From contig NZ_CP049616.1 in assembly GCF_011068285.1 (NCBI RefSeq), forward strand, positions 496,001-560,000: a stretch of DNA of 64,000 nt, written 5' to 3'. Shown one piece after another: positions 17,056-30,349 of the stretch (positions are counted from its first letter, which is position 1; each line of letters opens with the position of its first letter). The position numbers and the translations under genes were made by a program. The notes under the pieces are model-generated. The model was not told the origin of the DNA. It did no database searches and saw nothing but the letters and a program-made list of their open reading frames with translations. The stretch comes from Flagellimonas oceani (GTDB lineage Bacteria > Bacteroidota > Bacteroidia > Flavobacteriales > Flavobacteriaceae).

Positions 17056-18288
17056 ATGAGAACACCGTCTTTTTTTGGGTATAGTCGGCTGATGTCCATC
17101 CTGTTCCTTTCATTATTAATCTCCTGTAGTTCTGGGGATGGAGAGGCACCACCCGAGCCCAACAGCAATCCAAATCAAAACCTAGATCTTGAACCGGAGC
17201 TCGAACCCGAACCGGAACCCGTAACACAAAATGATATCGGTGTGGTCGATGACGCAGTATCCGGATTTATGGCCCAGTATGGGGTTCCCGGGGTCGCCTT
17301 GGCCGTCAGCGTGGACGAAAAAATGGTCTATTCCAAAGGATACGGCAAGGCCAATGTGGAGAACGATATCGATGTGTCACCGGACCATCTTTTTCGGATA
17401 GCCAGTATCTCAAAGGTGTTTACGGCAACGGCCATACTAAAGCTTGTAGATGATGGTTTGGTGTCCCTGGATGAACCTGTCTTCGGCCCTGATGGCATAT
17501 TGGGAGGTGATTTTGGTACAGCGGTGCTCACCGAGGATGAACTCGACATCACCGTGGATGACCTCTTGTTGCATGCTTCGGGCGGTTGGGGCACATCCAC
17601 TGGGGGAGATCCCATTGATTACCAACCCAATCTTGGGGCTTCCGATTTTATCGAATATGTATTGAACAACTGGTCGCTGAGCAATGCCCCGGGAGAAGTG
17701 TTCAGCTATAGCAATATGGGATACTGGCTTTTGGCTCGAATCATTGAGGAAAGGTCCGGTGAACCCTATGAAGCATACCTCAAAGGGCTGCTTTCACCCT
17801 TGGGGATAAGTTCGTTCCGGGTAACGACCTTTCGGGAGGATGACCTCGGGGCAAATGAAGTACATTATTATGGCGCAGAGGGCGATGCACCATACATTTT
17901 CACGATTGCCTCGAGAAGGGATGGAGATGCCGGGGTTGTCATCAGTGCGCCCGATTTGCTCCGTTTTTTGTGCGCCATCGATGGGGCACCGGAGAGACCC
18001 GATATATTGACCCCTGGTTCGATCGCATTGTTGTCCGAGACCACCGAACTGTCCAATCTGGGAAGGGGTCTGGCCGTATGGCCGGAACAGCAATTGACCT
18101 ATTTTACGGGAAGTCTTCCGGGAAACCGTTCGTGGATGATGATCGCTGAAAATGGACATACCGCCACCATTGTTTTGAACATGAGAAGGACGGATACCTC
18201 GGCTTTCGATAACGACCTGCAATCCCTTCTATTGAATATCGTGAAGGATGGAAACATTCCATGGCAAACCGATTTGAACCAGTTCTAG
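17056..18288 (+). CDS. Serine hydrolase lipoprotein of the class C beta-lactamase family
   Basis: The 410-residue protein has a lipoprotein signal with lipobox LISC (Cys24) and a Pro/Glu-rich linker (residues 30-57). The beta-lactamase/penicillin-binding-like domain follows. The catalytic SxxK motif is SISK (Ser117, Lys120) and the second motif is YSN (Tyr218 to Asn220). Members hydrolyse esters, D-amino-acid peptides or beta-lactams, and the substrate here is unknown. It is predicted to be anchored in the outer membrane or periplasm. It opens a plus-strand series of secreted proteins that ends in the ECF sigma/CHAT genes. Cotranscription is inferred from strand and short gaps. Confidence 0.88.
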   Translation: MRTPSFFGYSRLMSILFLSLLISCSSGDGEAPPEPNSNPNQNLDLEPELEPEPEPVTQNDIGVVDDAVSGFMAQYGVPGVALAVSVDEKMVYSKGYGKANVENDIDVSPDHLFRIASISKVFTATAILKLVDDGLVSLDEPVFGPDGILGGDFGTAVLTEDELDITVDDLLLHASGGWGTSTGGDPIDYQPNLGASDFIEYVLNNWSLSNAPGEVFSYSNMGYWLLARIIEERSGEPYEAYLKGLLSPLGISSFRVTTFREDDLGANEVHYYGAEGDAPYIFTIASRRDGDAGVVISAPDLLRFLCAIDGAPERPDILTPGSIALLSETTELSNLGRGLAVWPEQQLTYFTGSLPGNRSWMMIAENGHTATIVLNMRRTDTSAFDNDLQSLLLNIVKDGNIPWQTDLNQF

Positions 18289-18311
18289 GTGGTTCGTTCA
18301 AAACAAATATT

Positions 18312-19571
18312 ATGACTACAAAAACCTTAAAAATTAAACACAGCCTTATGAAAAGACCAATGCTAGTGGTGATTTCCTGTCTCTTGATTGTATTCTGTTG
18401 GGGAAGATCCAGTTCCAGAGCAGACGAAGTGGATGCCGAAGAAACCGGATATTCCGATCGGACCATTGATGAGGAGTTGGAAGATGATACGCTGGATGGC
18501 CGGGAATATGGGTTGTCTTCAGCGCTTGCACCTTCAAGCTCCACCAAAACACATCAACTAATAGATGCCCGGACAGGCCTTGTAGTGAACAGTACCGAAT
18601 ACCCCTCCAATTGGAATGTGATTTCCAAGCCTTCCTATACCATTGATCAAAAGCTGCCCACTTTTTTGATACAGATCACGGGCCCGGACCATTTGAATAG
18701 TTTCAATACCCCCATTGCATATCATGTCGATTACCAAGACCCACAGATGGCACAATTGATGTACAATACCCCCTATGGTAAAATGATCAGACCCTTGGCC
18801 GGTCCCCAACAGATTTTCAACGAGGAGGTAAAGGGCCGTATGGCCAAGAGTGGTTTTGAATATCTCGGGGAGCGTGAACAGCCCGAAGTGACCCGGTACC
18901 TCAGGAACAAGATCGCCTCCAAATCAGGGATGGACACCGCTCTATCGATCTACAATACCGAGTGGAAAAATTCCAAGGGCCAAAAGGCCATGGCAAGTGT
19001 ATCGGTCATAAGCATGGAACAGCCGACCGTATCCGGCAACATGATGGTCTGGTTCTATACGGTCAATTACACCTTTGTGGATGAATCCGCATATGAAAAG
19101 ACACTTGAACTGATGAAGGAGGCCACCTTCAGCTATAGGGAAAACCCACAATGGGAAGAATATGTGAACCGATTGGGGCAGCAAAGGGCACGGGAAAATC
19201 AAAGAAGGGCACAATTGGCAGCCGCCCAGCATCAAAACAGGATGCAGGCAAGGTGGAGCGCTTTCAATGCACATCAGGACAAAATGAAGGGGATTTGGGC
19301 CGCCCAGGATGCCAACCATGCTTCCTTTATGAACCGGAATTTCGGTGCAGGCAGCGATACGGGCCAACGCCAGTTCATCAATATGATCAATGAAGAGGAA
19401 ACGGTGTACAATCCGCTTACCGGAAACAATTATCAAGTGAACGCAGGCTCCACGGAGTATTGGATGGACAGTGATGGGAATTACATCCGCAACGATGATC
19501 TATTCTATACCCCAAATGGGGACATCAATCTCAATAACCGCGAATGGGTCAGGGTCGAGAACGCCCATTGA
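18312..19571 (+). CDS. Secreted protein of unknown function
   Basis: The reading frame is open from 18261, but that start would overlap the hydrolase gene. The ATG at 18312 (420 residues) or at 18348 (MKRPMLVVISCLLIVFCWG) fits better. A hydrophobic signal segment is followed by an acidic stretch and a globular region (about residues 90-290). A Gln/Ala/Arg-rich probable coiled coil with QQRARENQRRAQLAAAQ follows, then a C-terminal part rich in Asn and Tyr. No known domain is recognised. It lies 23 bases after the serine hydrolase and is probably in the same operon. Confidence 0.75.
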   Translation: MTTKTLKIKHSLMKRPMLVVISCLLIVFCWGRSSSRADEVDAEETGYSDRTIDEELEDDTLDGREYGLSSALAPSSSTKTHQLIDARTGLVVNSTEYPSNWNVISKPSYTIDQKLPTFLIQITGPDHLNSFNTPIAYHVDYQDPQMAQLMYNTPYGKMIRPLAGPQQIFNEEVKGRMAKSGFEYLGEREQPEVTRYLRNKIASKSGMDTALSIYNTEWKNSKGQKAMASVSVISMEQPTVSGNMMVWFYTVNYTFVDESAYEKTLELMKEATFSYRENPQWEEYVNRLGQQRARENQRRAQLAAAQHQNRMQARWSAFNAHQDKMKGIWAAQDANHASFMNRNFGAGSDTGQRQFINMINEEETVYNPLTGNNYQVNAGSTEYWMDSDGNYIRNDDLFYTPNGDINLNNREWVRVENAH

Positions 19572-19621: not shown

Positions 19622-20002
19622 ATGAAACAAGTTAAAATAATTTATGTGATCCTTGTCCTTGCTGTTGGCCTATCCTGTTCAACTGATAACGGCAATGAAT
19701 CCCAAGAACAGGCCATCTTCGCAGGAAATTGGTCAGGAACCTATACGGGGGGCGACAGCGGAACTTGGACCGCAACCATCGACTCAAACGGCTCGGTGGA
19801 GGGGGAGGCCTTTTCCAATAATCTGCAACAATCCCTTCCCTTGAACGGCAGTATTGATACCTCTGGGGATTTCAGGGCCACGGTGGGTTCGGCGATGAAT
19901 GGTGCAACATTTAAAGGTGCCTTTGCCTCAGATCAGGGCAGTGGCACATGGGAGAACAGCACGGACCAAATTTCAGGTAGTTGGACAGGAACCAAGGATT
20001 AA
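19622..20002 (+). CDS. Small lipoprotein of unknown function
   Basis: The 126-residue protein has a lipoprotein signal with lipobox VGLSC (Cys19). A Gly/Ser/Thr-rich body follows, with repeated GxWxGT-like strands (GNWSGTYTGG, GTWTATIDSNG, GSGTWEN, GSWTGTKD) that suggest a small beta barrel. No enzyme motif is seen. It sits between two larger secreted proteins on the same strand and is probably cotranscribed. Confidence 0.75.
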   Translation: MKQVKIIYVILVLAVGLSCSTDNGNESQEQAIFAGNWSGTYTGGDSGTWTATIDSNGSVEGEAFSNNLQQSLPLNGSIDTSGDFRATVGSAMNGATFKGAFASDQGSGTWENSTDQISGSWTGTKD

Positions 20003-20036: not shown

Positions 20037-22277
20037 ATGAAAATTCCATATCAAAAAATTGTAATTGCATGGTTTGTTTTGGCGCTAACCATGGCTTGTA
20101 GCTCCAATGACAACGGGACCGACCCAATGACCGATGATGATTTCTCACAGACCGATGACGATCCTACACCTACAGACGATGATCCTGGCAGCGATGAAGG
20201 CTATGAAATGGCGGATGTTCAAGTGTTGTTGCCCGAAAATGCGGATGTAGATCTTACCAATGCCACATTGGCATCAATGGGTGCCGATTCCGATGTAGAT
20301 GCCAGTGGGATGGGGAAATTGCCGTTCAACAGTGGTTCCGTTGAATCGGGATATCTGCTGGATGCGGACAACCACGTTTTACTTGCAGGTTTTATTTCGG
20401 GAGACAGGAAGGAAGTCTCTGTCGAGACCACCGCCGAACTGATGGTATACTATGCACTGGGTTATCACTTATTGCCCGAGAGTGGAAAAAGTGCTTTTTT
20501 GAAAAGTATAGGGCAAGTTCCTGGATTCCCAAATTTTGTGGGAGAAATTCGAACATTGTTCGAGAACAACCCACTTATGTACAGCGAAGGGGGTTATGAA
20601 GCCTCATTGCAGGCTTTCTTGGATCAAATAACGGCAAAACATTCGGTGGGCCTCGAAAACCGGATTTTTTTCAATGATGAAAATACCAAAAGCGGAGTGA
20701 CTTTGTCAAGTGTCGATTCCACTAGGATAAAGTTGCAAAATTCCCTGGCAAGAAAGTCCAGGGTCGTCATTTACAAGAAGAGCTACAAGAATAGAAGCGG
20801 AGATCTTTTTGAGATACCAAATTATACCTCAAGTACCTTTGCCAATTTTAAATTGGAGTCGGGCGGCTCCAACGCCATACAGGAACTGGAAGTGGGGAAC
20901 TCGCTCCAACAGATAAATGCGCAACAGGCATCTATAGACAATGCGATAGCAACAGACCCCATCCTTTTGCCGGTAGACCCTGACACTGAATTGGTGGCCG
21001 AATATGAAGTGGTCGTCATCGGTTCTGGTCAACGCAACACCGAAGTTAGGGGCATGACCGCCGAAGAACTGGAAATCTATACCGAAATCAATAAGGAGAC
21101 CTATGTCATCGATTATTTTTTGCCCACCTTGCTTGATGTGGGCGGCAACAAATCATTGTTGCCACCATTTGGAAGTGACAAGGAAAATGCGCTTTACAAT
21201 GCGGTACTTCCTGTTCTTGAACAATATCCCGATGTGATTGATGCGGTGGTGGAGAACGAGTTCAAGGAAGCCACTGAAATCTTTCTTCCCGCTCTGTATG
21301 AAGATGTCCGTTTGAGCAATGACCTAAGGGCCCTACTAACGGATGTGTACGCCATATTGTCCGGCAACGGAGACTTTCCGAATACGTTTATACAGACCCA
21401 AGAGTTGATCGAAACAGGTTATGAACGAACAAAGTACATTTTGGCCACAATCGATAAAAATATCAAGGCAACCAATTATTACGCCAATTTCAACGGTCTA
21501 CGTACGACAGCCTTCAATTTTGAAAGTTGGGAGGTCAAGTCCATCGATGCCGTGGTGGAGCTGCAACAGGACAACGTTTCGCTCTGTCTGGGCGAGGCAA
21601 CGGAACTGCGTGCAAGCGCAATTACAGATTATGACCCGGAAGTGGAGGACTTTGAATTCCATTGGAGCACTTCGAACGATTTTGGGGGAAGGGTCCAGGA
21701 CATTGGCGGCGACCCCAACAATTTTGGAGTCTCCATTGTCACGACCAATAATTATGTGTCCTATATCAGTACCGCACTTGATTCCGAATTGGGCGGCGGG
21801 GACAACCTGGAGACCGTCACCGTGATATTGTATTTCCGAAACAAGAATACGGACGAACTCACCGAGGCCGGGAGGGACACTATGACCGTAAACAACAAAA
21901 AGGGCTGTGAGTCCTTTACGGTATCCATTGAGCGACAGCCCAATTTTAGGGAAACCTCAAGCTCAAGTCTCCTTTGTTCTGGCGGTCCCGAGTACCAAGC
22001 TTTTAGTCCGGTCCCATTTGCCGCTGAATTTGCCGCCGTGGATGGAGCGATTGGGTATAGGGGAGTCATAACCTCCAACAATGGCAACAAGAGCCCGGAG
22101 CAGGTTTTGAATACCGCAGATATTGGAGGAGGCATGTTAAGACTCAATCTGGGTGTGGGCAGTATCATTATTTATAACAGCTGCAATGAAACGGAGGCCC
22201 AGGCCTATGCTGAAGAGATTGTGGACAATTTGAATTCGCAGCCCGTAAGCGTTGAAATCACACCCATTTTTAATTAG
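20037..22277 (+). CDS. Large lipoprotein of unknown function
   Basis: The open frame begins at 19899, but the ATG at 20037 gives a proper lipoprotein signal (MKIPYQKIVIAWFVLALTMA before Cys21) and avoids overlap with the preceding gene, leaving 746 residues. A low-complexity Asp/Pro/Thr linker follows the lipid cysteine. The rest has no recognised domain. A C-terminal part from about residue 510 (VVELQQDNVSLCLGEATELR) looks like an Ig-like domain with a few cysteines. It immediately precedes the ECF sigma gene and may belong to the same transcription unit. Confidence 0.75.
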   Translation: MKIPYQKIVIAWFVLALTMACSSNDNGTDPMTDDDFSQTDDDPTPTDDDPGSDEGYEMADVQVLLPENADVDLTNATLASMGADSDVDASGMGKLPFNSGSVESGYLLDADNHVLLAGFISGDRKEVSVETTAELMVYYALGYHLLPESGKSAFLKSIGQVPGFPNFVGEIRTLFENNPLMYSEGGYEASLQAFLDQITAKHSVGLENRIFFNDENTKSGVTLSSVDSTRIKLQNSLARKSRVVIYKKSYKNRSGDLFEIPNYTSSTFANFKLESGGSNAIQELEVGNSLQQINAQQASIDNAIATDPILLPVDPDTELVAEYEVVVIGSGQRNTEVRGMTAEELEIYTEINKETYVIDYFLPTLLDVGGNKSLLPPFGSDKENALYNAVLPVLEQYPDVIDAVVENEFKEATEIFLPALYEDVRLSNDLRALLTDVYAILSGNGDFPNTFIQTQELIETGYERTKYILATIDKNIKATNYYANFNGLRTTAFNFESWEVKSIDAVVELQQDNVSLCLGEATELRASAITDYDPEVEDFEFHWSTSNDFGGRVQDIGGDPNNFGVSIVTTNNYVSYISTALDSELGGGDNLETVTVILYFRNKNTDELTEAGRDTMTVNNKKGCESFTVSIERQPNFRETSSSSLLCSGGPEYQAFSPVPFAAEFAAVDGAIGYRGVITSNNGNKSPEQVLNTADIGGGMLRLNLGVGSIIIYNSCNETEAQAYAEEIVDNLNSQPVSVEITPIFN

Positions 22278-22369
22278 AATATGTACTTTGTCGATGAAAC
22301 CGTGCACCGGACTTTTAAATTACCCAAAAAGATGAATTTTTGTAAATTCCCCATACTTTCAATTGAAGT

Positions 22370-22936
22370 ATGGGGAAAACCTTGCAGACAAAAGATAACC
22401 CACAGGTCACCGCATTCAAAAAAAATGACAGGCAGGCCATGCAAGAGGTATATGAACATACGTTTCCAAAATTTAGGAGCCACGTCTTCAGGAACAGTGG
22501 GAATGAAGCGGAGGCGAAGGATGTTTTTCAAGACGCCTTTGTTGCTTGCTGGAGAAATATCAAGGATGACAAGTTTGATGGCGCAGGAAGTGTTGAGGCC
22601 TACCTGTACACCATAGCCAGGAATAAATGGACCGACCACCTGCGTTCCGCACGGTTCAGAAAAACGGTGGGAGCGGAGGGCCTTTCCAAAGTGGTGCAAG
22701 AAGCGGGCGATGATTCCGGTGGGGAGCTGGACGATAAAAGGGAAACAATGCTTAAGGCATTGGATCAACTGGGAGATGCCTGTCAACAGCTTTTGGGTCT
22801 TTTTTATTACGAGAGAAAGACAATGAAGCAGGTGGCCAAGGACCTTGGGATTGCGGCCACATCTGCCAGAAATAAAAAATATAGGTGCATGGAACGTTTG
22901 CGTTCGCTTGCGGAACATATAACAAGGAATGGATAG
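22370..22936 (+). CDS. ECF-type RNA polymerase sigma factor
   Basis: The 188-residue protein has sigma region 2 (about residues 20-85: EAEAKDVFQDAFVACWRNI, then a YLYTIARNKWTDHLR helix). Region 4 is at about residues 125-185 (QQLLGLFYYERKTMKQVAKD, with a SARNKKYRCMERLR recognition helix). It would direct RNA polymerase to a small regulon. The next gene overlaps it by eight bases and encodes a membrane protein in the anti-sigma position, so control by sequestration is likely. Its target promoters are unknown, although the lipoprotein genes just upstream are natural candidates. Confidence 0.9.
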   Translation: MGKTLQTKDNPQVTAFKKNDRQAMQEVYEHTFPKFRSHVFRNSGNEAEAKDVFQDAFVACWRNIKDDKFDGAGSVEAYLYTIARNKWTDHLRSARFRKTVGAEGLSKVVQEAGDDSGGELDDKRETMLKALDQLGDACQQLLGLFYYERKTMKQVAKDLGIAATSARNKKYRCMERLRSLAEHITRNG

Positions 22937-23666
22937 GGAAGAAGCATATTGGACAAGGGAGGAGCAAGAGCTGTTCGAAAGTTGTCTTTTGGACCAGATG
23001 ACACCTGCGGAAAAAGCCGGTTTTGAGTCAAGGATGGCCTCGGATCCGACGCTCAAGGCCAAGTTTTTGGAATTTAAGGCCCTTTTCGGAGCCATTGAAG
23101 AGGCTGGACTCCGCCTTGCCATGGACCATTTTCACGAGGGAGTTCAAGACGATGGAAAAGAAAGGCGACTTTCCACTGCCTCTAGAACGGTATATCGCAT
23201 GGCAGCAGCAATAGCTGTGTTAATGACCTTGGGGGGCATATGGTATTTTTATTATCCCAATGACAATGAAAGGCTCTTTGCTGCATATTACACCCCCGAC
23301 CCGGGACTGCCAACGGTCATGGGCAACAGTGACAACTATATGTTTTACGAAGCCATGGTGGACTATAAACAAGAGGATTATGGTACCGCCCTTCAAAAGT
23401 GGAAAGGCCTATTGCCGGGGAAAATGGACAATGACACGCTCAATTATTTTATGGGATCGGCCCATTTGGCCAAGGGTGAGGCCGATAAGGCCATCAGTTA
23501 TTTTGACCGTGTGCTGGTGCACGACAGCACGCCCTTTCGGAGCGAGGCGGCTTTTTACAAAGGCCTGGCCCACCTTAAAATGAACGAGGTACGGGAGGCG
23601 CTCAAAAGTCTGGAGCATACCTCGGATGACAGGGCAAGGGAATTGGCACAAAAACTAAAGGACTGA
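22929..23666 (+). CDS. Single-pass membrane protein with periplasmic TPR domain, putative anti-sigma factor
   Basis: The 245-residue protein overlaps the sigma gene by eight bases, indicating translational coupling. Residues 1-85 are cytosolic and carry a motif typical of anti-sigma-like starts (LDQMTPAEKAGFESRMASDP). Residues about 91-109 form one membrane helix (MAAAIAVLMTLGGIWYFYY). Residues about 135-240 are TPR-like repeats (YGTALQKWKGLL, KGEADKAISYFDRVL, EVREALKSLEH) predicted to be periplasmic. No zinc-binding anti-sigma motif is visible, so the anti-sigma role rests on position and topology. The following TPR-CHAT protease gene starts seven bases later. Confidence 0.8.
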   Translation: MDREEAYWTREEQELFESCLLDQMTPAEKAGFESRMASDPTLKAKFLEFKALFGAIEEAGLRLAMDHFHEGVQDDGKERRLSTASRTVYRMAAAIAVLMTLGGIWYFYYPNDNERLFAAYYTPDPGLPTVMGNSDNYMFYEAMVDYKQEDYGTALQKWKGLLPGKMDNDTLNYFMGSAHLAKGEADKAISYFDRVLVHDSTPFRSEAAFYKGLAHLKMNEVREALKSLEHTSDDRARELAQKLKD

Positions 23667-23672
23667 TCTGGC

Positions 23673-26600
23673 ATGGGCAAAGGGTTGGTATATATTTTTG
23701 TTGGGGTTGCCCTTTTCTTGCAGACGGGCCTATATGCGCAACATAGGCATCCGGTGCTCAAACAGCTGGACAGCCTTATCTCAGTGGATGGGTTTGACGC
23801 TGCACAGCATATCATTGGAGAGGTCATTTCGGGGGAAACAACATACCCGTTCCTCAATGAGGGCCGATTGGTCTATCCCCTTGCCAAGTCGGAATTTTTA
23901 TTGGACCCGGAGACGGAATTCCCAAAGGCACAGGAACTGTTGAAAATGATCCGATCGAACCATGAGGGGGATTCCATAGCGTATGAGGCACTCTTGGGAC
24001 TGGGGCTGGCGCATATCGATCAAGGGAGCGCGGTTCAGGCCAAAGCGTACATCACACAAGCCAATCGATTGGCCGATGGCCTTGAGGATGCACAAAGAAT
24101 GGTGGCCTCGGAATTTCACCTGAGCGAGGTGGGCTTGAAACTTGGGGACATGAACCAATTGATGAAACGGACCAACAGGGCCCTGCAGTTGATGGGGGAA
24201 CATCCAGGAACACAGTTCCCTTTGGCACCCAGGATATTGAATTACAAGGGATCGCTGATGTACTTTACGGCGAAACCCGACAGTGCCGACTATTATTTTG
24301 AAAAGGCCATCCAGAGCATTGACACTTTGAACACCGATCCGGAACAGCGGTATTACCTGCCCGGTACCATTTATGGCAACTGGACCATGGTCAAACAGAG
24401 CGAGAATGATTTGGAGAAGGCGATGGCACTTACCTTAAAGAGCATTGCAAGTTTCAATGCATTCCTGGAAGGGACCCATAACCATCCTTTGACGGAAAAG
24501 GTACGCTTCAACCTATCGATCTCCTATCGAAATTTGGGCAGTCTGTACAATGATTTCGGCGACAAGGAAAAGGCCATCCAAGTGGCCACTTTGGGATATC
24601 ACCATTCCAAAAAGCACTTTCTTCCCAACACGGTACAATATTTCAGTGCCGTATTGATGATGGGGGAGGCACACCTCTATGGGGAAGACCTGCAAAAGGC
24701 TCGAAAGTATCTCCAAGAGGCTGAGGCGTCACTGCAGGAGATACCGGGGGACAACTGGGCCTATGCCGCCAACCTGTATTACACCATTGCGGATCTTGAT
24801 AAAAGAACGGGGGATCTCCTAAGTGCCATTGCGCACTACGAAAGAACATTGGAGGCCTACGGCAACAGCAATTCCGAGGAGTTTAGCCAGAACAGTATCT
24901 ACGCCAGGGCGAATTTGGCCCAAAGCCTTGCCGAGAACGGACAGTTTGGCAAAGCGCAGGACCTTTTGGAAGAAACGTATGCCAAGGTGCTCGCCAGCTA
25001 TGGGCAGCGGAGCCATCTGTCCAAAATGTTACAGCTTACCAAGGTGAGGATGTTCTTTTTAAAGGGTGATTTCGAACAGGCCATCCAGCTCTGTGAGGGT
25101 TTGTTGGAGGCACGTGGCGATCAGGACCTGCAGAACAGGCCCTATCTATGGGGTGAACGGACCGAAATTCTTTTATATCTGGCCAAGTCGAAATTGGGAT
25201 TGGGGTCCCATTCCCAAAACCAGCTTGAGGCAGTGGCGAAAATCCTTGATCGGGCCATATCCCTGGTGGAAAAGCGAAAATCCCTGGTCACCTCCCAGGA
25301 AGGGGTGGCCAATTTGATCGAAAGCAGTCGCGAAGCCTTCGATCTGGGTAAAAAGGTCTATCTGAAGCTATATGACCAAACCGGGGACAAGGCCCATCTT
25401 GAAAAGGTCATGGCCCTTCATGAGTCCTCGATTTACAACCGTATCAGGGCGCGCTTGAACCTAAGGGGGGATGACATGATCCCCAAAGAAGTTCGGGAAC
25501 GAGAAGGTCGGTTGCGAGAGGAAATAAATACCTTTTTTGATGTTGAGGATGACGAAACTCAGTTCAATGTGGCCATCTGGGATTCCCTCAGCAGAGGATG
25601 GCAGGACCATATGCGTTTCCTTCAAAAGGAGTATCCAAAGTACTATGGGATGCGGTACGCTTCCATAGTGGAACCCTTGCGGGACTTGGGGCGGCAAGTT
25701 CCGCCGAACACCACACTGGTGCGTTACTTCTCGGATGGTGATGATCGTTATGCCTACGTTTACCATAGGGGGGAGGCCGAGTTGGTGGCATTGGGGCAAT
25801 CGGACGCAGCTTGTATATCCACCATTTCGGACTACGGGGCTGTCGGGGAAGAGCTTTTTGATTGCCTTTATGAGCTCTACCAAAGATTATGGAGGCCCTT
25901 GGAAGGTGTTGTCCGGACAGAACAGGTCATCATCTTTCCCGATGGGGAGCTCTTCAACCTGGCCTTTGAACTGCTCACACCAAAAAGGATACAATCCTAT
26001 GCGGAACTGGCAACGGGCAGTTTGCTGGCCGAACATATCCTTTCATACAACTACAGCCTGTTCATGCTGGGCGAAAACAAGAAGGTCGTGGGGTACAAGG
26101 ACGACTTCATTGCCTTTGCCCCTGAGTTTGACCAAGAAATGAAGACCCGGTATCAAATGTCGATTTCCGATTCGTTGTTTTTGGACAAAACCTATCTGAC
26201 CCTGTTGCCGCAACCGTTCAGTACCGCATTGGTGAAAAAATTCAGCCGGAGATTCGATGGAAGTTCATTTTTGAACGAAAGGGCCTCCAAACCCTTGTTT
26301 ATCCAAAATGCCAATGAACACAAGATCATCCATATTGGCACCCATGCCGAATCCAATAATGTGAGTCCCGAACTTTCACGCCTGGTATTCGCCAAGAATG
26401 TGTCAAACCCTTCGGATATCAACGACAATTACCTATACACCTATGAGATCTACAACCAAGACCTCGGGTCCAACTTGGCCATACTGACGGCCTGTGAGAC
26501 AGGAAAGCCGACCTACCAGCCCGGGGAGGGGATGATTTCATTGGCGCATGCGTTTAACTATGCGGGCAGTGAAAGTGTGTTGACAAGCCTTTGGCAAATC

Positions 26601-26903
26601 GATGAAGAATCGAGCAGCCAATTGTTGGAAAGCTTTTACCGCCATTTGATGGAGGGCAGGCGCAAGGACGAGGCCCTTCGCTTGGCCAAACTGGAGTATC
26701 TGGCCCATGCGGAAGGTCGTACCCTGCATCCACAATATTGGGCGGGACTGGTCTTGATGGGGGACACCTCACCCATACACTTTACCCAAGGCAAACTTTG
26801 GCCTTTTGGAATCTTGGCGGGCTCATTGCTATTGATTTTGTTGGTTTTTTTCCTGGTAAAAAAGAAAAGCTCCCCAAAGGGAGCTGATCCAAACAAGAGC
26901 TAA
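23673..26903 (+). CDS. Membrane-anchored TPR-CHAT caspase-like protease
   Basis: The 1076-residue protein starts with a signal peptide (MGKGLVYIFVGVALFLQTGL). A long TPR region follows (about residues 80-470) and a coiled linker. The C-terminal CHAT peptidase domain spans about residues 680-1040. The predicted catalytic dyad is His891 in HIGTHA and Cys941 in LTACETG. A single C-terminal membrane helix (about 1045-1066, LWPFGILAGSLLLILLVFF) and a Lys-rich tail close the protein. This topology places the TPRs and the protease in the periplasm, anchored to the inner membrane. The gene is the third in a tight set with the sigma and anti-sigma-like genes. CHAT proteases cleave specific partner proteins, so the TPR anti-sigma is an attractive substrate, but this is inference. 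Confidence 0.9.
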   Translation: MGKGLVYIFVGVALFLQTGLYAQHRHPVLKQLDSLISVDGFDAAQHIIGEVISGETTYPFLNEGRLVYPLAKSEFLLDPETEFPKAQELLKMIRSNHEGDSIAYEALLGLGLAHIDQGSAVQAKAYITQANRLADGLEDAQRMVASEFHLSEVGLKLGDMNQLMKRTNRALQLMGEHPGTQFPLAPRILNYKGSLMYFTAKPDSADYYFEKAIQSIDTLNTDPEQRYYLPGTIYGNWTMVKQSENDLEKAMALTLKSIASFNAFLEGTHNHPLTEKVRFNLSISYRNLGSLYNDFGDKEKAIQVATLGYHHSKKHFLPNTVQYFSAVLMMGEAHLYGEDLQKARKYLQEAEASLQEIPGDNWAYAANLYYTIADLDKRTGDLLSAIAHYERTLEAYGNSNSEEFSQNSIYARANLAQSLAENGQFGKAQDLLEETYAKVLASYGQRSHLSKMLQLTKVRMFFLKGDFEQAIQLCEGLLEARGDQDLQNRPYLWGERTEILLYLAKSKLGLGSHSQNQLEAVAKILDRAISLVEKRKSLVTSQEGVANLIESSREAFDLGKKVYLKLYDQTGDKAHLEKVMALHESSIYNRIRARLNLRGDDMIPKEVREREGRLREEINTFFDVEDDETQFNVAIWDSLSRGWQDHMRFLQKEYPKYYGMRYASIVEPLRDLGRQVPPNTTLVRYFSDGDDRYAYVYHRGEAELVALGQSDAACISTISDYGAVGEELFDCLYELYQRLWRPLEGVVRTEQVIIFPDGELFNLAFELLTPKRIQSYAELATGSLLAEHILSYNYSLFMLGENKKVVGYKDDFIAFAPEFDQEMKTRYQMSISDSLFLDKTYLTLLPQPFSTALVKKFSRRFDGSSFLNERASKPLFIQNANEHKIIHIGTHAESNNVSPELSRLVFAKNVSNPSDINDNYLYTYEIYNQDLGSNLAILTACETGKPTYQPGEGMISLAHAFNYAGSESVLTSLWQIDEESSSQLLESFYRHLMEGRRKDEALRLAKLEYLAHAEGRTLHPQYWAGLVLMGDTSPIHFTQGKLWPFGILAGSLLLILLVFFLVKKKSSPKGADPNKS
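26858..26885 (-). terminator. Terminator for the convergent lipoprotein gene, inside the CHAT coding end
   Basis: AGCTCCC (26868-26874) and GGGAGCT (26879-26885) form a perfect 7-bp stem with a four-base loop. On the minus strand the stem is followed by TTTTCTTTTTT. It lies within the last codons of the CHAT gene and fits termination of the minus-strand gene that stops at 26928. Confidence 0.7.
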
Positions 26904-26927: not shown

Positions 26928-27698
26928 TCATCCCTGGTTGTTGGGGACATTGGGATTGTTGTCGTCAGGATCCTCGTTGGCGGGGACCCCGTCATTGTCA
27001 TTGTCCACAAACGTGCCGTCCCTCCCCACGAAGAGCTGGAAATTTATGGGCAGGAAAGTGTCCATGACCTGATCATTGTATTCATTGCTCGGGGCCGAGG
27101 TGACCGAAATGGCGGAAAATGTGCCGCCGGCAAGATAGGTGGACCTTACCCAGACCTGGGCGGTTATGCCATTGAAACGGAGCAAGCGGGCCTCAAATTG
27201 GGAGGGTATCCCCTCGAAGGAGTTGTTGGCCGAGCTGATGCACAATACATTGGGGGTGCCATTGAAACCGTAGTGGGCGAACACCCCATTGATTTCATTG
27301 GCTATGATGGACCTGGCAGCGACCTGTCCTTGGAGTTGTGTGTTCGGAATCCATCGAAATACAACGGCATTGTCGTTGCGTACGAGATTGACACCAAGTG
27401 TCCCAGTCTGCGTGTCGGTCAGCTCAAAGGCAGAAAACCCTTGGGGATAGACAAATCCGATAAGGGGGTGTAGACTATGGACAAACTGTCCGCCCGGATT
27501 GTTCACTGTTGGCACTTGGGACAAGGGGGCCGGAATGGAATTGGCAAACTCCCAATAGATGCCGGTGAGCCCGGGGGCATTTTCACAAAGGCCCTGAGGC
27601 TCGGCATTGGCCAGGCCATTGTTGGAATCTGAATCCGAACTGCAGCCAAATAGGCATAGGGCAATCGTTGATAGGAATAGGGTTGGAATACGCTTCAT
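26928..27698 (-). CDS. Lipoprotein of unknown function with Asp/Asn-rich tail
   Basis: From the ATG at 27698 (MKRIPTLFLSTIALCLFGC) the protein has 256 residues and a clear lipobox ending at Cys19. The upstream in-frame start at 27743 would disrupt the signal. The body has no recognised domain. The tail (FVDNDNDGVPANEDPDDN) is Asp/Asn-rich like a calcium-binding thrombospondin type 3 unit. The gene converges on the CHAT protease gene, and its terminator lies inside that gene. Confidence 0.75.
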   Translation of the reverse strand: MKRIPTLFLSTIALCLFGCSSDSDSNNGLANAEPQGLCENAPGLTGIYWEFANSIPAPLSQVPTVNNPGGQFVHSLHPLIGFVYPQGFSAFELTDTQTGTLGVNLVRNDNAVVFRWIPNTQLQGQVAARSIIANEINGVFAHYGFNGTPNVLCISSANNSFEGIPSQFEARLLRFNGITAQVWVRSTYLAGGTFSAISVTSAPSNEYNDQVMDTFLPINFQLFVGRDGTFVDNDNDGVPANEDPDDNNPNVPNNQG

Positions 27699-27757
27699 GA
27701 TATGTTTCTTTTTCCTAGTATCGAGGAAAAGGGGAAATGTCATCAGGATAGCTTTGG

Positions 27758-28180: not shown

Positions 28181-28390
28181 ATGGTTGATTTAGGTTTGCT
28201 GGTCAAAAAGCATCGCAAGAAAGCGGGGCTGACACAGCTTGAACTGGCCAATTTGGCCGGTATAGGCAAGACAACCGTCTTTGATATCGAAAAAAACAAG
28301 GAGACTGTTCGTTGGAGCAACATCCTTGCCGTGCTCCAGGTATTGAACATAGAAGTGGAATTTAAAAGCCCATTGACTGAAAACGGATGA
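28181..28390 (+). CDS. hipB: HipB-like antitoxin, Xre-family helix-turn-helix
   Basis: The 69-residue protein is a single Xre helix-turn-helix domain (residues 5-60: KKHRKKAGLTQLELANLAGI, then GKTTVFDIEKNKETV) of the type found with HipA kinases. It overlaps the next gene by four bases (ATGA). Three palindromes upstream are its probable operators. It differs clearly from the 87-residue HipB at 6076. Confidence 0.88.
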   Translation: MVDLGLLVKKHRKKAGLTQLELANLAGIGKTTVFDIEKNKETVRWSNILAVLQVLNIEVEFKSPLTENG

Positions 28391-28701
28391 GAAAGGCAGT
28401 GGTATATGCCCATGGAAAAAGGGCGGGTGTTTTAACGGAATTGTCCCAATCGAAATATAGGTTTGATTATGATGATGATTACAGTGGTCAGGCGATTTCA
28501 TTGACCATGCCCGTTAACGAAAAGGGATTTGGTTTTGATGGGTTTCCTCCCTTTTTTGAAGGGTTGTTGCCCGAAGGTATCATGCTGGAAGGTCTACTTA
28601 GGATTTCCAAAATCGATCAAAAGGATTATTTCTCCCAATTAATGGCCACCGGTGCTGATTTGGTAGGCGCCGTAACTGTAAAACCTCTGGAATATGAATA
28701 G
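28387..28701 (+). CDS. hipS: HipS-like protein (separate HipA N-terminal subdomain)
   Basis: The 104-residue protein corresponds to the N-subdomain-1 of HipA (KRAGVLTELSQSKYRFDYDD, then GFPPFFEGLLPEGIMLEGLL) as a stand-alone product. In the tripartite HipBST systems described in enteropathogenic E. coli, HipS neutralises the HipT kinase. It overlaps hipB by four bases and the kinase gene by eight, so the three genes were translationally coupled. The gene itself looks intact even though its kinase partner is interrupted. Confidence 0.82.
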   Translation: MRKAVVYAHGKRAGVLTELSQSKYRFDYDDDYSGQAISLTMPVNEKGFGFDGFPPFFEGLLPEGIMLEGLLRISKIDQKDYFSQLMATGADLVGAVTVKPLEYE

Positions 28702-28967
28702 GTGCCCTATCACATATGAACCCTGTGGTACGGCTAAGTACAGCGCGAAAGGTCTTAAAATGATAGCGCCTAAATTAATAGGATTGAATGATTTGCCCTA
28801 TACGGCATCCGAATTACGGAGAGAGGCGGCAAACAGGGCGAAGAAATTATCCATACAGGGGGTACAGCCTAAATTGAGTGCTAGTATTTCCGTGGTCGAA
28901 CAAGAGTTTAAAATAGTGGATCAATTCGGAACCTACATCTTAAAACCCCAAAATGATATTTTTCCAG
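28694..28967 (+). pseudogene. hipT: HipT kinase, truncated by an IS3 element
   Basis: The frame starts with MNRCPITYEPCGTAKYSAKG and keeps the phosphate-loop segment KKLSIQGVQPKLS (Ser53, Gln55). It reads into the conserved GTYILKPQNDIFP and then enters the IS3 left end at 28968, and the open frame stops in IS sequence at 29011. The kinase catalytic loop and metal site are absent, and no continuation is found beyond the element, so the toxin must be inactive. About 91 codons of a normal 300-330 remain. Confidence 0.85.
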
Positions 28968-29012
28968 TGTACGTCTTCAAACGAATTAGGACTGTCCCGA
29001 TCCAAAGTTAAG

Positions 29013-29990
29013 TCATAGTTTCAACTTTTGAATTAGGTGCTCTTTCCTTCTTTTGAGCATCGTTCTTTTCTTTATCGATTTACGTTTTTCCAATATCTTT
29101 TTGTCCCTTCCGAAATATACGGCTGCCGGTGTCAGGTTGTCCAATGATTCGTGGTATCTCCTGTTGTTGTAATAGTCCACGAACTCTTCCAACCTTTCCT
29201 TGAGTTCCCCCGGCATATAGTAGTTGTCCAGTTTGATGATGTTCTTCATCGAACGGTGGTAACGCTCTATCTTGCCCTGCGTCTGTGGATGGTTCGGTTT
29301 TCCCCGGATATGCTCCATCTCCCTTTCCTTTATGAACTCCTTCAGTTCGCCACTGATGTAACAGGGCCCGTTGTCCGACAGGAGCCTTGGCATTTGCCCT
29401 TTGGGCAGCGATACCTTTTCCAATGCCCTTCCCACTGTTTTCTTCACATCCCCTGCGTTCATCGAGGGACAGAGTTCCCAATGGATAATATATCGGCTGT
29501 AATCGTCCAGAATGGTCGAGAGATAGTACCAGCCCCACCCGACGATCTTCAGATAGGTGAAGTCCGTCTGCCACATCTGGTGAACCCTTATGGTCTTGTC
29601 CCTGTACTCCTGTGAAGCGGCCATGGTATCAAAAGCAGGGGATGTCACCAGTCCACGTGACTTAAGTATGCGGTAGACACTGCTCTCCGAGATATAGTAT
29701 TCCCGCTCATCGGTCATCTTACAGGCAAGTCCGCGACAGGATTCCTCCGGGAAGTCCAGGGCCATCTCCACGACCTCCGACCTAATCTTGTCGGGTATCC
29801 TGTTCCAATAGGTATTGCGTGCCCTATGGTTGGGCGCAAGTCCGTCAAAGCCACCTTCGAGGTACTTACCGTACCAGTTGTAGAAGGTGCTCTTGTTTAT
29901 CCCTATTTCCTTCAATGTCCTGTTCACGCCTATTTCAGATGTCTCCACAAGCCTTATGATCTCGTATTTCTCCTGTTGGGTAAATCGCAT
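29013..29990 (-). CDS. IS3-family transposase OrfB (DDE integrase core)
   Basis: The 325-residue frame has an HTH-like start and then a retroviral-type integrase core: WQTDFTYLKIVGWGWYYLST (first Asp), LLSDNGPCYISGELKEFI (second Asp) and the KIERYHRSMKN segment (Glu). The production form is probably the OrfAB fusion made by -1 frameshifting at the A7G run complementary to 30024-30031. In that frame the codons between orfA and this start are open (KYQWLRVKWRKYM). The copy looks intact and may be active. Confidence 0.9.
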   Translation of the reverse strand: MRFTQQEKYEIIRLVETSEIGVNRTLKEIGINKSTFYNWYGKYLEGGFDGLAPNHRARNTYWNRIPDKIRSEVVEMALDFPEESCRGLACKMTDEREYYISESSVYRILKSRGLVTSPAFDTMAASQEYRDKTIRVHQMWQTDFTYLKIVGWGWYYLSTILDDYSRYIIHWELCPSMNAGDVKKTVGRALEKVSLPKGQMPRLLSDNGPCYISGELKEFIKEREMEHIRGKPNHPQTQGKIERYHRSMKNIIKLDNYYMPGELKERLEEFVDYYNNRRYHESLDNLTPAAVYFGRDKKILEKRKSIKKRTMLKRRKEHLIQKLKL

Positions 29991-30004
29991 GTACTTCCTC
30001 CATT

Positions 30005-30349
30005 TTACCCTAAGCCATTGGTACTTTTTTTGAGCACCCGGTTCTGGAGCAACAGTTCGGCCACCGTTTCCTTAAGCTGGGAGTTCTCCCCACGGAGTTC
30101 CTTTACTTCACTGGTATTGGCCTCGCGCATGGTGTCACCCATCAGGCGCTTCTTCCCAGCTTCCAGAAAATCCTTGCTCCAACGATAGTACAGTGCCGGG
30201 GCAATGCCCTCACGCCTGCAGATGCCGGATACCGATTCCTCGCCCTTGAGACCTTCCAGCACGATACGGATCTTTTCCTCTGCAGAAAACTTCCTCCTTG
30301 TATTCCTTTTAATGTCCTTTACGATTGATTCCGTGTTCTTCTTTGTCAT
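30005..30349 (-). CDS. IS3-family OrfA (helix-turn-helix)
   Basis: The 114-residue protein has the usual IS3 OrfA layout: RRKFSAEEKIRIVLEGLKGE, then SVSGICRREGIAPALYYRWS as the helix-turn-helix, and a C-terminal leucine-zipper-like helix (ELRGENSQLKETVAELLLQN). It ends shortly after a slippery AAAAAAAG (complement of 30024-30031), the classical signal for -1 frameshifting into OrfB. Confidence 0.9.
   Translation of the reverse strand: MTKKNTESIVKDIKRNTRRKFSAEEKIRIVLEGLKGEESVSGICRREGIAPALYYRWSKDFLEAGKKRLMGDTMREANTSEVKELRGENSQLKETVAELLLQNRVLKKSTNGLG

Follow-up and report, generated by a model that had tools for sequence, protein, structure and literature searches.

A sigma factor, a membrane anti-sigma-like protein and a TPR-CHAT protease as a candidate proteolytic signalling unit in Flagellimonas oceani

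The DegS/RseA/RseP pathway is an example of regulated intramembrane proteolysis, and its site-1 protease, DegS, combines a trypsin domain with PDZ domains. This pathway is mentioned in PMC10028731, which in its part on type III-E clustered regularly interspaced short palindromic repeats (CRISPR) systems describes how the tetratricopeptide repeat (TPR)-CHAT protease Csx29 cuts Csx30, the inhibitor of CASP-sigma, a sigma factor similar to those of the extracytoplasmic function (ECF) type. Genes for CHAT proteins, subtilases and carboxypeptidases lie near ECF54 sigma factor genes, and proteolysis has been proposed for that group in part of PMC8999054. A further system is DdvS/DdvA of Myxococcus xanthus (part of PMC4374960), which we equate by name with the DdvA found in PDB entries 8rot and 8rw5; the title of 8rot gives a transmembrane anti-sigma factor DdvA, and one of its chains is named as a CHAT domain-containing protein. 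Among the matches listed, no paper was recognizable by title as dealing with the structure of DdvA or its CHAT part, and among the open-licence papers listed for a CHAT/anti-sigma link those of relevance were PMC10028731, PMC9729208 and PMC8999054. Here we describe three adjacent genes of Flagellimonas oceani, located in a stretch of 64,000 nucleotides (contig NZ_CP049616.1, positions 496,001 to 560,000; hereafter the window), which encode an ECF sigma factor, a membrane anti-sigma-like protein and a TPR-CHAT protease, and which probably form a one-way proteolytic transmembrane signalling unit.

In the mechanism that we propose, residues 10-70 of the anti-sigma would hold the sigma factor at the cytoplasmic face of the membrane, and its TPR half is predicted to lie in the periplasm, where the anchored CHAT protein may have its own TPR superhelix beside it. 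An envelope signal would turn CHAT active, and the protease would then cut the anti-sigma some 20 residues outside the membrane, in an exposed coil. An M50 site-2 protease would probably remove the stub and free the sigma factor; the genome includes two M50-type open reading frames (ORFs). The best reading is that CHAT would act as a periplasmic site-1 protease on this coil. We distinguish R-type systems, with Arg-Gly/Ser in the anti-sigma coil, from M-type systems, with DPGL-PT-x-Met-Gly/Ser; the window is M-type. Because of a match between the coil residue (P1) and a putative pocket residue of the protease (S1), the cut is expected after Met131 in the window and after Arg in R-type systems.

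The proposed route shares with DegS/RseA/RseP a periplasmic first cut of an anti-sigma with one transmembrane segment and a possible second cut by an M50 protease. Unlike that pathway, it has a caspase-like first protease, whose gene accompanies those of the sigma and anti-sigma; Pfam identifies this protease as a TPR-CHAT protein and not as a DegS-type trypsin-PDZ protein. Target RNA activates Csx29, which works in a complex with the RNA-guided Cas7-11, whereas the CHAT protein of the window is predicted to be secreted and anchored, and its partner to span the membrane; it scores 20.1 bits with the Csx29 family model NF041237, for which the cut-off is 300. DdvA unites anti-sigma and CHAT in one chain, which in the window are the products of two separate genes. 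As in ECF54, CHAT is encoded beside an ECF sigma factor, and a subtilase gene also adjoins some R-type systems. The earlier note on this DNA regarded the route as distinct from the DegS/RseP and FecR types. This stands insofar as the site-1 protease is of another kind and Pfam gave no FecR match for the anti-sigma, whose periplasmic part is TPR, up to E 0.1; Csx29/Csx30/CASP-sigma and DdvA are nevertheless precedents for such a route.

The ORF list of the window confirmed three ORFs on the forward strand, at 22370-22936, 22929-23666 and 23673-26903, exactly the tight three-gene order previously noted for 22370-26903 (coordinates below are also of the forward strand unless stated). The sigma and anti-sigma ORFs share 8 bp, and the CHAT ORF begins 6 bp past the end of the anti-sigma ORF. 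The genome consists of one contig of 4.6 Mb and includes only one CHAT match. The sole PADLOC match was Csx1/Csm6, at E 0.099. The first protein (188 amino acids) contains sigma70 regions 2 and 4 only and is hence an ECF sigma factor, with Sigma70_r2 (E 3e-14), r4 (E 1.3e-5) and the NCBIfam model TIGR02937 all above cut-off.

The second protein (245 amino acids) was assigned by ORF, Pfam, NCBIfam, alignment and model. Its AlphaFold model (mean pLDDT, the predicted local distance difference test score, of 82.6) has N-terminal helices at residues 10-20, 26-38 and 40-70, and the NCBIfam anti-sigma family NF052375 matches residues 20-108 (E 1.4e-4, 22 bits, below its cut-off of 100), which points to an N-terminal helical domain at residues 10-70 (22956..23138) that is predicted to be cytoplasmic. 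Anti-sigma families match 24 of 74 members at E 0.01. A single hydrophobic stretch, residues 91-109 (23199..23255; Kyte-Doolittle 1.49), is the predicted transmembrane segment; all 73 relatives have a stretch that reaches 1.2 or more, and in 70 of these lysine and arginine are richer on its N-terminal side. Residues 135-245 (23331..23663) form a TPR domain by Pfam, model and Foldseek. When the PDB was searched with this model by Foldseek, the top 50 matches were almost all TPR proteins, and the N-terminal domain was left unplaced.

The third protein (1076 amino acids; ORF, Pfam and model) carries, in addition to TPR, a CHAT peptidase domain of clan CD at residues 732-1031 (25866..26765; Pfam E 4.2e-39, 135.1 bits against a cut-off of 24). 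It starts with a signal-peptide-like segment (residues 1-22, 23673..23738), seen as a hydrophobic stretch only (1.76), continues into a TPR superhelix of about residues 25-600 (23745..25472; Pfam, model and structure search), and ends in a putative membrane anchor at residues 1044-1062 (26802..26858; hydrophobicity 2.68) with a positive, K-rich tail. Among 76 CHAT relatives, 75 have a stretch of 1.2 or higher at the C-terminus, and the tail that follows is net positive in 75/75; 64 have such a stretch at the N-terminus, the starts being those of the longest ORF. The periplasmic location that had been suggested for the anti-sigma TPR half (one transmembrane segment, K/R bias) and for the C-terminally anchored TPR-CHAT protein (hydrophobic stretches, basic tail) is borne out as a prediction; agreement in topology between loci has no discriminating power, as nearly all share one topology. 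The AlphaFold model of the CHAT protein (mean pLDDT 84.4) resembles separase in a structure search. A phmmer search of the PDB with the full-length protein gave nothing useful, and a CHAT-domain profile was used because TPR matches dominated the results of the full-length one.

Evidence that bears on a possible cut lies in the segment between the membrane and the TPR domain of the anti-sigma, where residues 121-134 are coil in the model. Alignments and model place there the periplasmic coil DPGLPTVMG (residues 124-132, 23298..23324), with the proposed cleavage after Met131 (23319-23321). DPGLPTVM is invariant in 39 M-type homologues and is the most conserved octamer of the anti-sigma there; in 18 M-type loci that were chosen through CHAT, with the motif not used in the choice, the coil reads by eye DPGL-PT-[VTI]-M-[GS]. 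At the aligned position R-type loci carry Arg and, directly after it, Gly or Ser. The 74 rows of the alignment show 50 Arg, 19 Met (window included) and 5 other residues at this position, and in these last five an Arg or Lys is seen by eye a few positions away. In the R-type group with 43 convergent loci, the most conserved stretch is a TPR segment and not the coil.

One CHAT column follows the coil residue. The column of Leu853 (26229..26231; alignment, model and tree) holds Glu in 49/49 Arg loci, Leu, Val or Ile in 18/18 Met loci and Glu in the five others, and no second CHAT column was acidic in every Arg locus and never in Met loci. In a set of named loci every one of the 68 pairs has Met in the coil and L, I, V, T or A in this column; the retrieval pattern biases the Met count of this set but not its CHAT residue. 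The two positions look like a substrate-pocket (P1/S1) match. P1 recognition in clan CD falls to a residue that follows strand beta1 and lies in helix alpha1 or at its start, as described in parts of PMC4357240 and PMC4626109 for Asp163 of gingipain R, Asp365 of MALT1, Arg64 of caspase-3 and an acidic residue of separases. In the CHAT model position 853 lies in helix 848-860, after strand 810-816 and two short helices; we take this helix as alpha1, which would place 853 at S1. In a weak alignment the sequence of Csx29 (8d9g/7x8a) has a Glu in the putative S1 column. Separase differs in that it is eukaryotic and cuts cohesin, and M-type CHATs are without its acidic residue. The gene arrangement does not define the Met type, since in L065, L072, L073 and L116 CHAT lies downstream on the same strand, yet its residue is Glu and the coil has Arg or Lys (L073 by eye).

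A sample from across the phylum has Glu at the Leu853 column in 43/43 CHAT ORFs, and among its 12 anti-sigma matches five have Arg in the aligned column and eight, by eye, show in the coil an Arg followed by Gly, Ser, Ala or Thr; the pairing of Glu with Arg therefore looks ancestral. In a tree of 183 CHAT domains all 83 non-acidic sequences fall in one clade (support 0.907), requiring one change. We give about even chances to the broader proposal that periplasmic site-1 proteases of a separase-like kind act on anti-sigmas widely in Bacteroidota, as a system with two specificities, in which the ancestral cut follows Arg, and one lineage changed pocket (Glu to Leu, Ile, Val, Thr or Ala) and cut site (Arg to Met) and kept the pair matched. 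If this is true, the two-specificity system could explain part of the Bacteroidota ECF sigma factors without known anti-sigma genes, and a TPR anti-sigma cut by CHAT would carry caspase-like signalling proteases from CRISPR immunity into envelope signalling. The proposed cut site and pocket residue are both open to direct swapping.

The link between these genes is conserved. We searched 249 Flavobacteriaceae genomes with the anti-sigma and CHAT of the window, scoring up to three CHAT candidates per genome; at E 1e-3 the anti-sigma query matches at least 116 genomes and the CHAT query at least 111. Among the matches listed, with thresholds of E ≤1e-5 for the anti-sigma and E ≤1e-3 for CHAT, 81 genomes have both, 135 have neither, 3 have the anti-sigma alone and 30 have CHAT alone, so that the two co-occur more than by chance. 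The three-gene linkage, too, which the earlier note proposed to look for in other Bacteroidota, was found: 80 regions of up to 20 kb each were taken around top-scoring Flavobacteriaceae CHAT matches (a non-random part of the list), and a script based on ORFs and hidden Markov models (HMMs) located sigma and anti-sigma genes in 74 of them. These genes are convergent with CHAT in 43 regions, have CHAT downstream on the same strand in 22, are divergent in 7 and have CHAT upstream in 2. Among the six others, L048 ends at a contig edge just upstream of CHAT, L060 and L095 hold CHAT fragments only, and no pair was found in the regions of L049, L063 (which ends just past CHAT) and L103; the genome of L049 has an anti-sigma match on a different contig from CHAT. 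Of 76 named loci chosen through the anti-sigma, its ORF was called in 72 and missed by the script in four. All 72 hold CHAT on the same strand (68 downstream, 4 upstream), and 68 have a sigma gene within 300 bp. Since the HMMs were built from the first locus set, these counts measure gene order and not independent identification. Across the phylum PF12770 matched in 148 of 296 genomes; among 40 regions from outside the Flavobacteriaceae, 39 have a CHAT ORF (43 ORFs in total) and 12 an anti-sigma match, a few of them distant or doubtful. The link therefore reaches beyond the Flavobacteriaceae, yet is no general trait of CHAT proteins. The anti-sigma of locus L120, from [Muricauda] okinawensis, is identical to that of the window.

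Two points limit how far the coil can be read as a cleavage site. The single change on the CHAT tree makes the pocket/coil match one long-kept event and not many independent ones, and a pseudosubstrate, no less than a substrate, would be expected to have a conserved coil whose residue fits the pocket. Securin keeps separase off as a pseudosubstrate, and the CHAT model resembles separase; the coil might likewise block the active site, with released CHAT acting on another envelope substrate, for which the secreted proteins encoded next door are candidates, and the sigma factor reporting its release. We consider this unlikely: alone it gives no output step, which the conserved sigma gene needs, and Csx29 does cut its anti-sigma partner Csx30 (part of PMC10028731). 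Cleavage of the anti-sigma remains our preferred reading. The earlier note suggested that the protease could cut its partner across a TPR-TPR contact and release the sigma factor. Cutting and sigma release gained support from the coil between membrane and TPR domain and from the matched CHAT residue; the TPR-TPR contact stays hypothetical.

CHAT could also cut one of the neighbouring secreted proteins in place of the anti-sigma, with the sigma factor merely controlling expression of CHAT and the neighbours. Families of secreted proteins do recur: those of about 401, 259, 819 and 126 amino acids are found in 44, 32, 30 and 10 of 156 loci, mostly M-type, and subtilase and OmpA-like proteins recur next to some R-type systems. 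No such family is as constant as the anti-sigma cluster, present in 145 of the 156 loci (which were chosen via CHAT or anti-sigma), and the residue that tracks the CHAT position sits in the anti-sigma coil, so that this explanation seems quite improbable.

TPR domains usually bind proteins, and both partners carry them; CHAT could thus be a non-proteolytic sensor that binds the anti-sigma TPR and alters its grip on the sigma factor without cutting. The catalytic dyad named in the earlier note, His891 (26343..26345) and Cys941 (26493..26495), is invariant in 77/77 aligned CHATs and in 68/68 of the named set, which a pure scaffold would not need, and we regard a sensor of this kind as very unlikely. 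Least probable of all is that the TPR membrane protein is some other membrane partner, the sigma factor being regulated otherwise: its N-terminal family matches are below curated cut-offs and TPR-type folds rank top in the PDB search, but its gene is directly 3' of sigma, often overlapping, in most loci, a helical domain precedes its one transmembrane segment, and up to a third of its members have matches to anti-sigma families.

The sigma start codon at 22370 lies within an inverted repeat (22347..22377; 12-bp arms, 7-base loop) identified by folding and alignment. Such a repeat is often found at the sigma start where CHAT is downstream and was not seen in most other loci. In folding of 45 nt at the start, 67 loci with CHAT downstream have a mean z of -3.35 (53 with z < -1.5), compared with 0.11 in 42 other loci (2 with z < -1.5), both against mononucleotide shuffles. 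In an alignment of 40 hand-chosen stretches of 64 with CHAT downstream, 81.3% of cells pair, versus 42 to 63% after sliding by 1 to 3 columns, and 25 cells are changed on both sides versus a shuffled mean of 13.6; two further measures were no higher than in shuffles (both-side-changed pairs, 3 vs 3.8; further pair types, 16 vs 16.4). At the RNA level the repeat may form a translational hairpin that covers the start; alternatively, it may be an operator in the DNA. No clear ECF motif emerged when dyads were searched for a common promoter. Upstream of R-type sigma genes (L061-L119), GTTAAC or GTTTAC is often seen by eye 20-60 bp before the start, perhaps as part of a putative autoregulated promoter.

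In most convergent loci (L061-L118) the anti-sigma gene and the CHAT gene overlap at their 3' ends or lie almost end to end (39/43 within 26 bp), and their transcripts could therefore be antisense at their ends. Tandem CHAT genes next to a single sigma/anti-sigma pair were observed in L051, L079 and L175.

Upstream of the trio the window encodes a beta-lactamase-fold hydrolase (17056-18288; Pfam), a secreted protein of 436 amino acids (18261-19571; ORF) and, by eye, lipoproteins of 126 (19622-20002) and about 746 amino acids (about 20037-22277). A lipoprotein of 271 amino acids, also recognized by eye, is encoded on the reverse strand at 26928..27743, convergent with CHAT. Scanning these five neighbours with Pfam gave one beta-lactamase-family protein and four without a match; their assignment to the recurring families was made through L120. 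The recurring secreted and lipoprotein neighbours may be sensors or targets. Further downstream, within 28387-30349, two short ORFs, which resemble pieces of a HipA-like gene, abut a two-ORF transposase-like element at 29013-30349.
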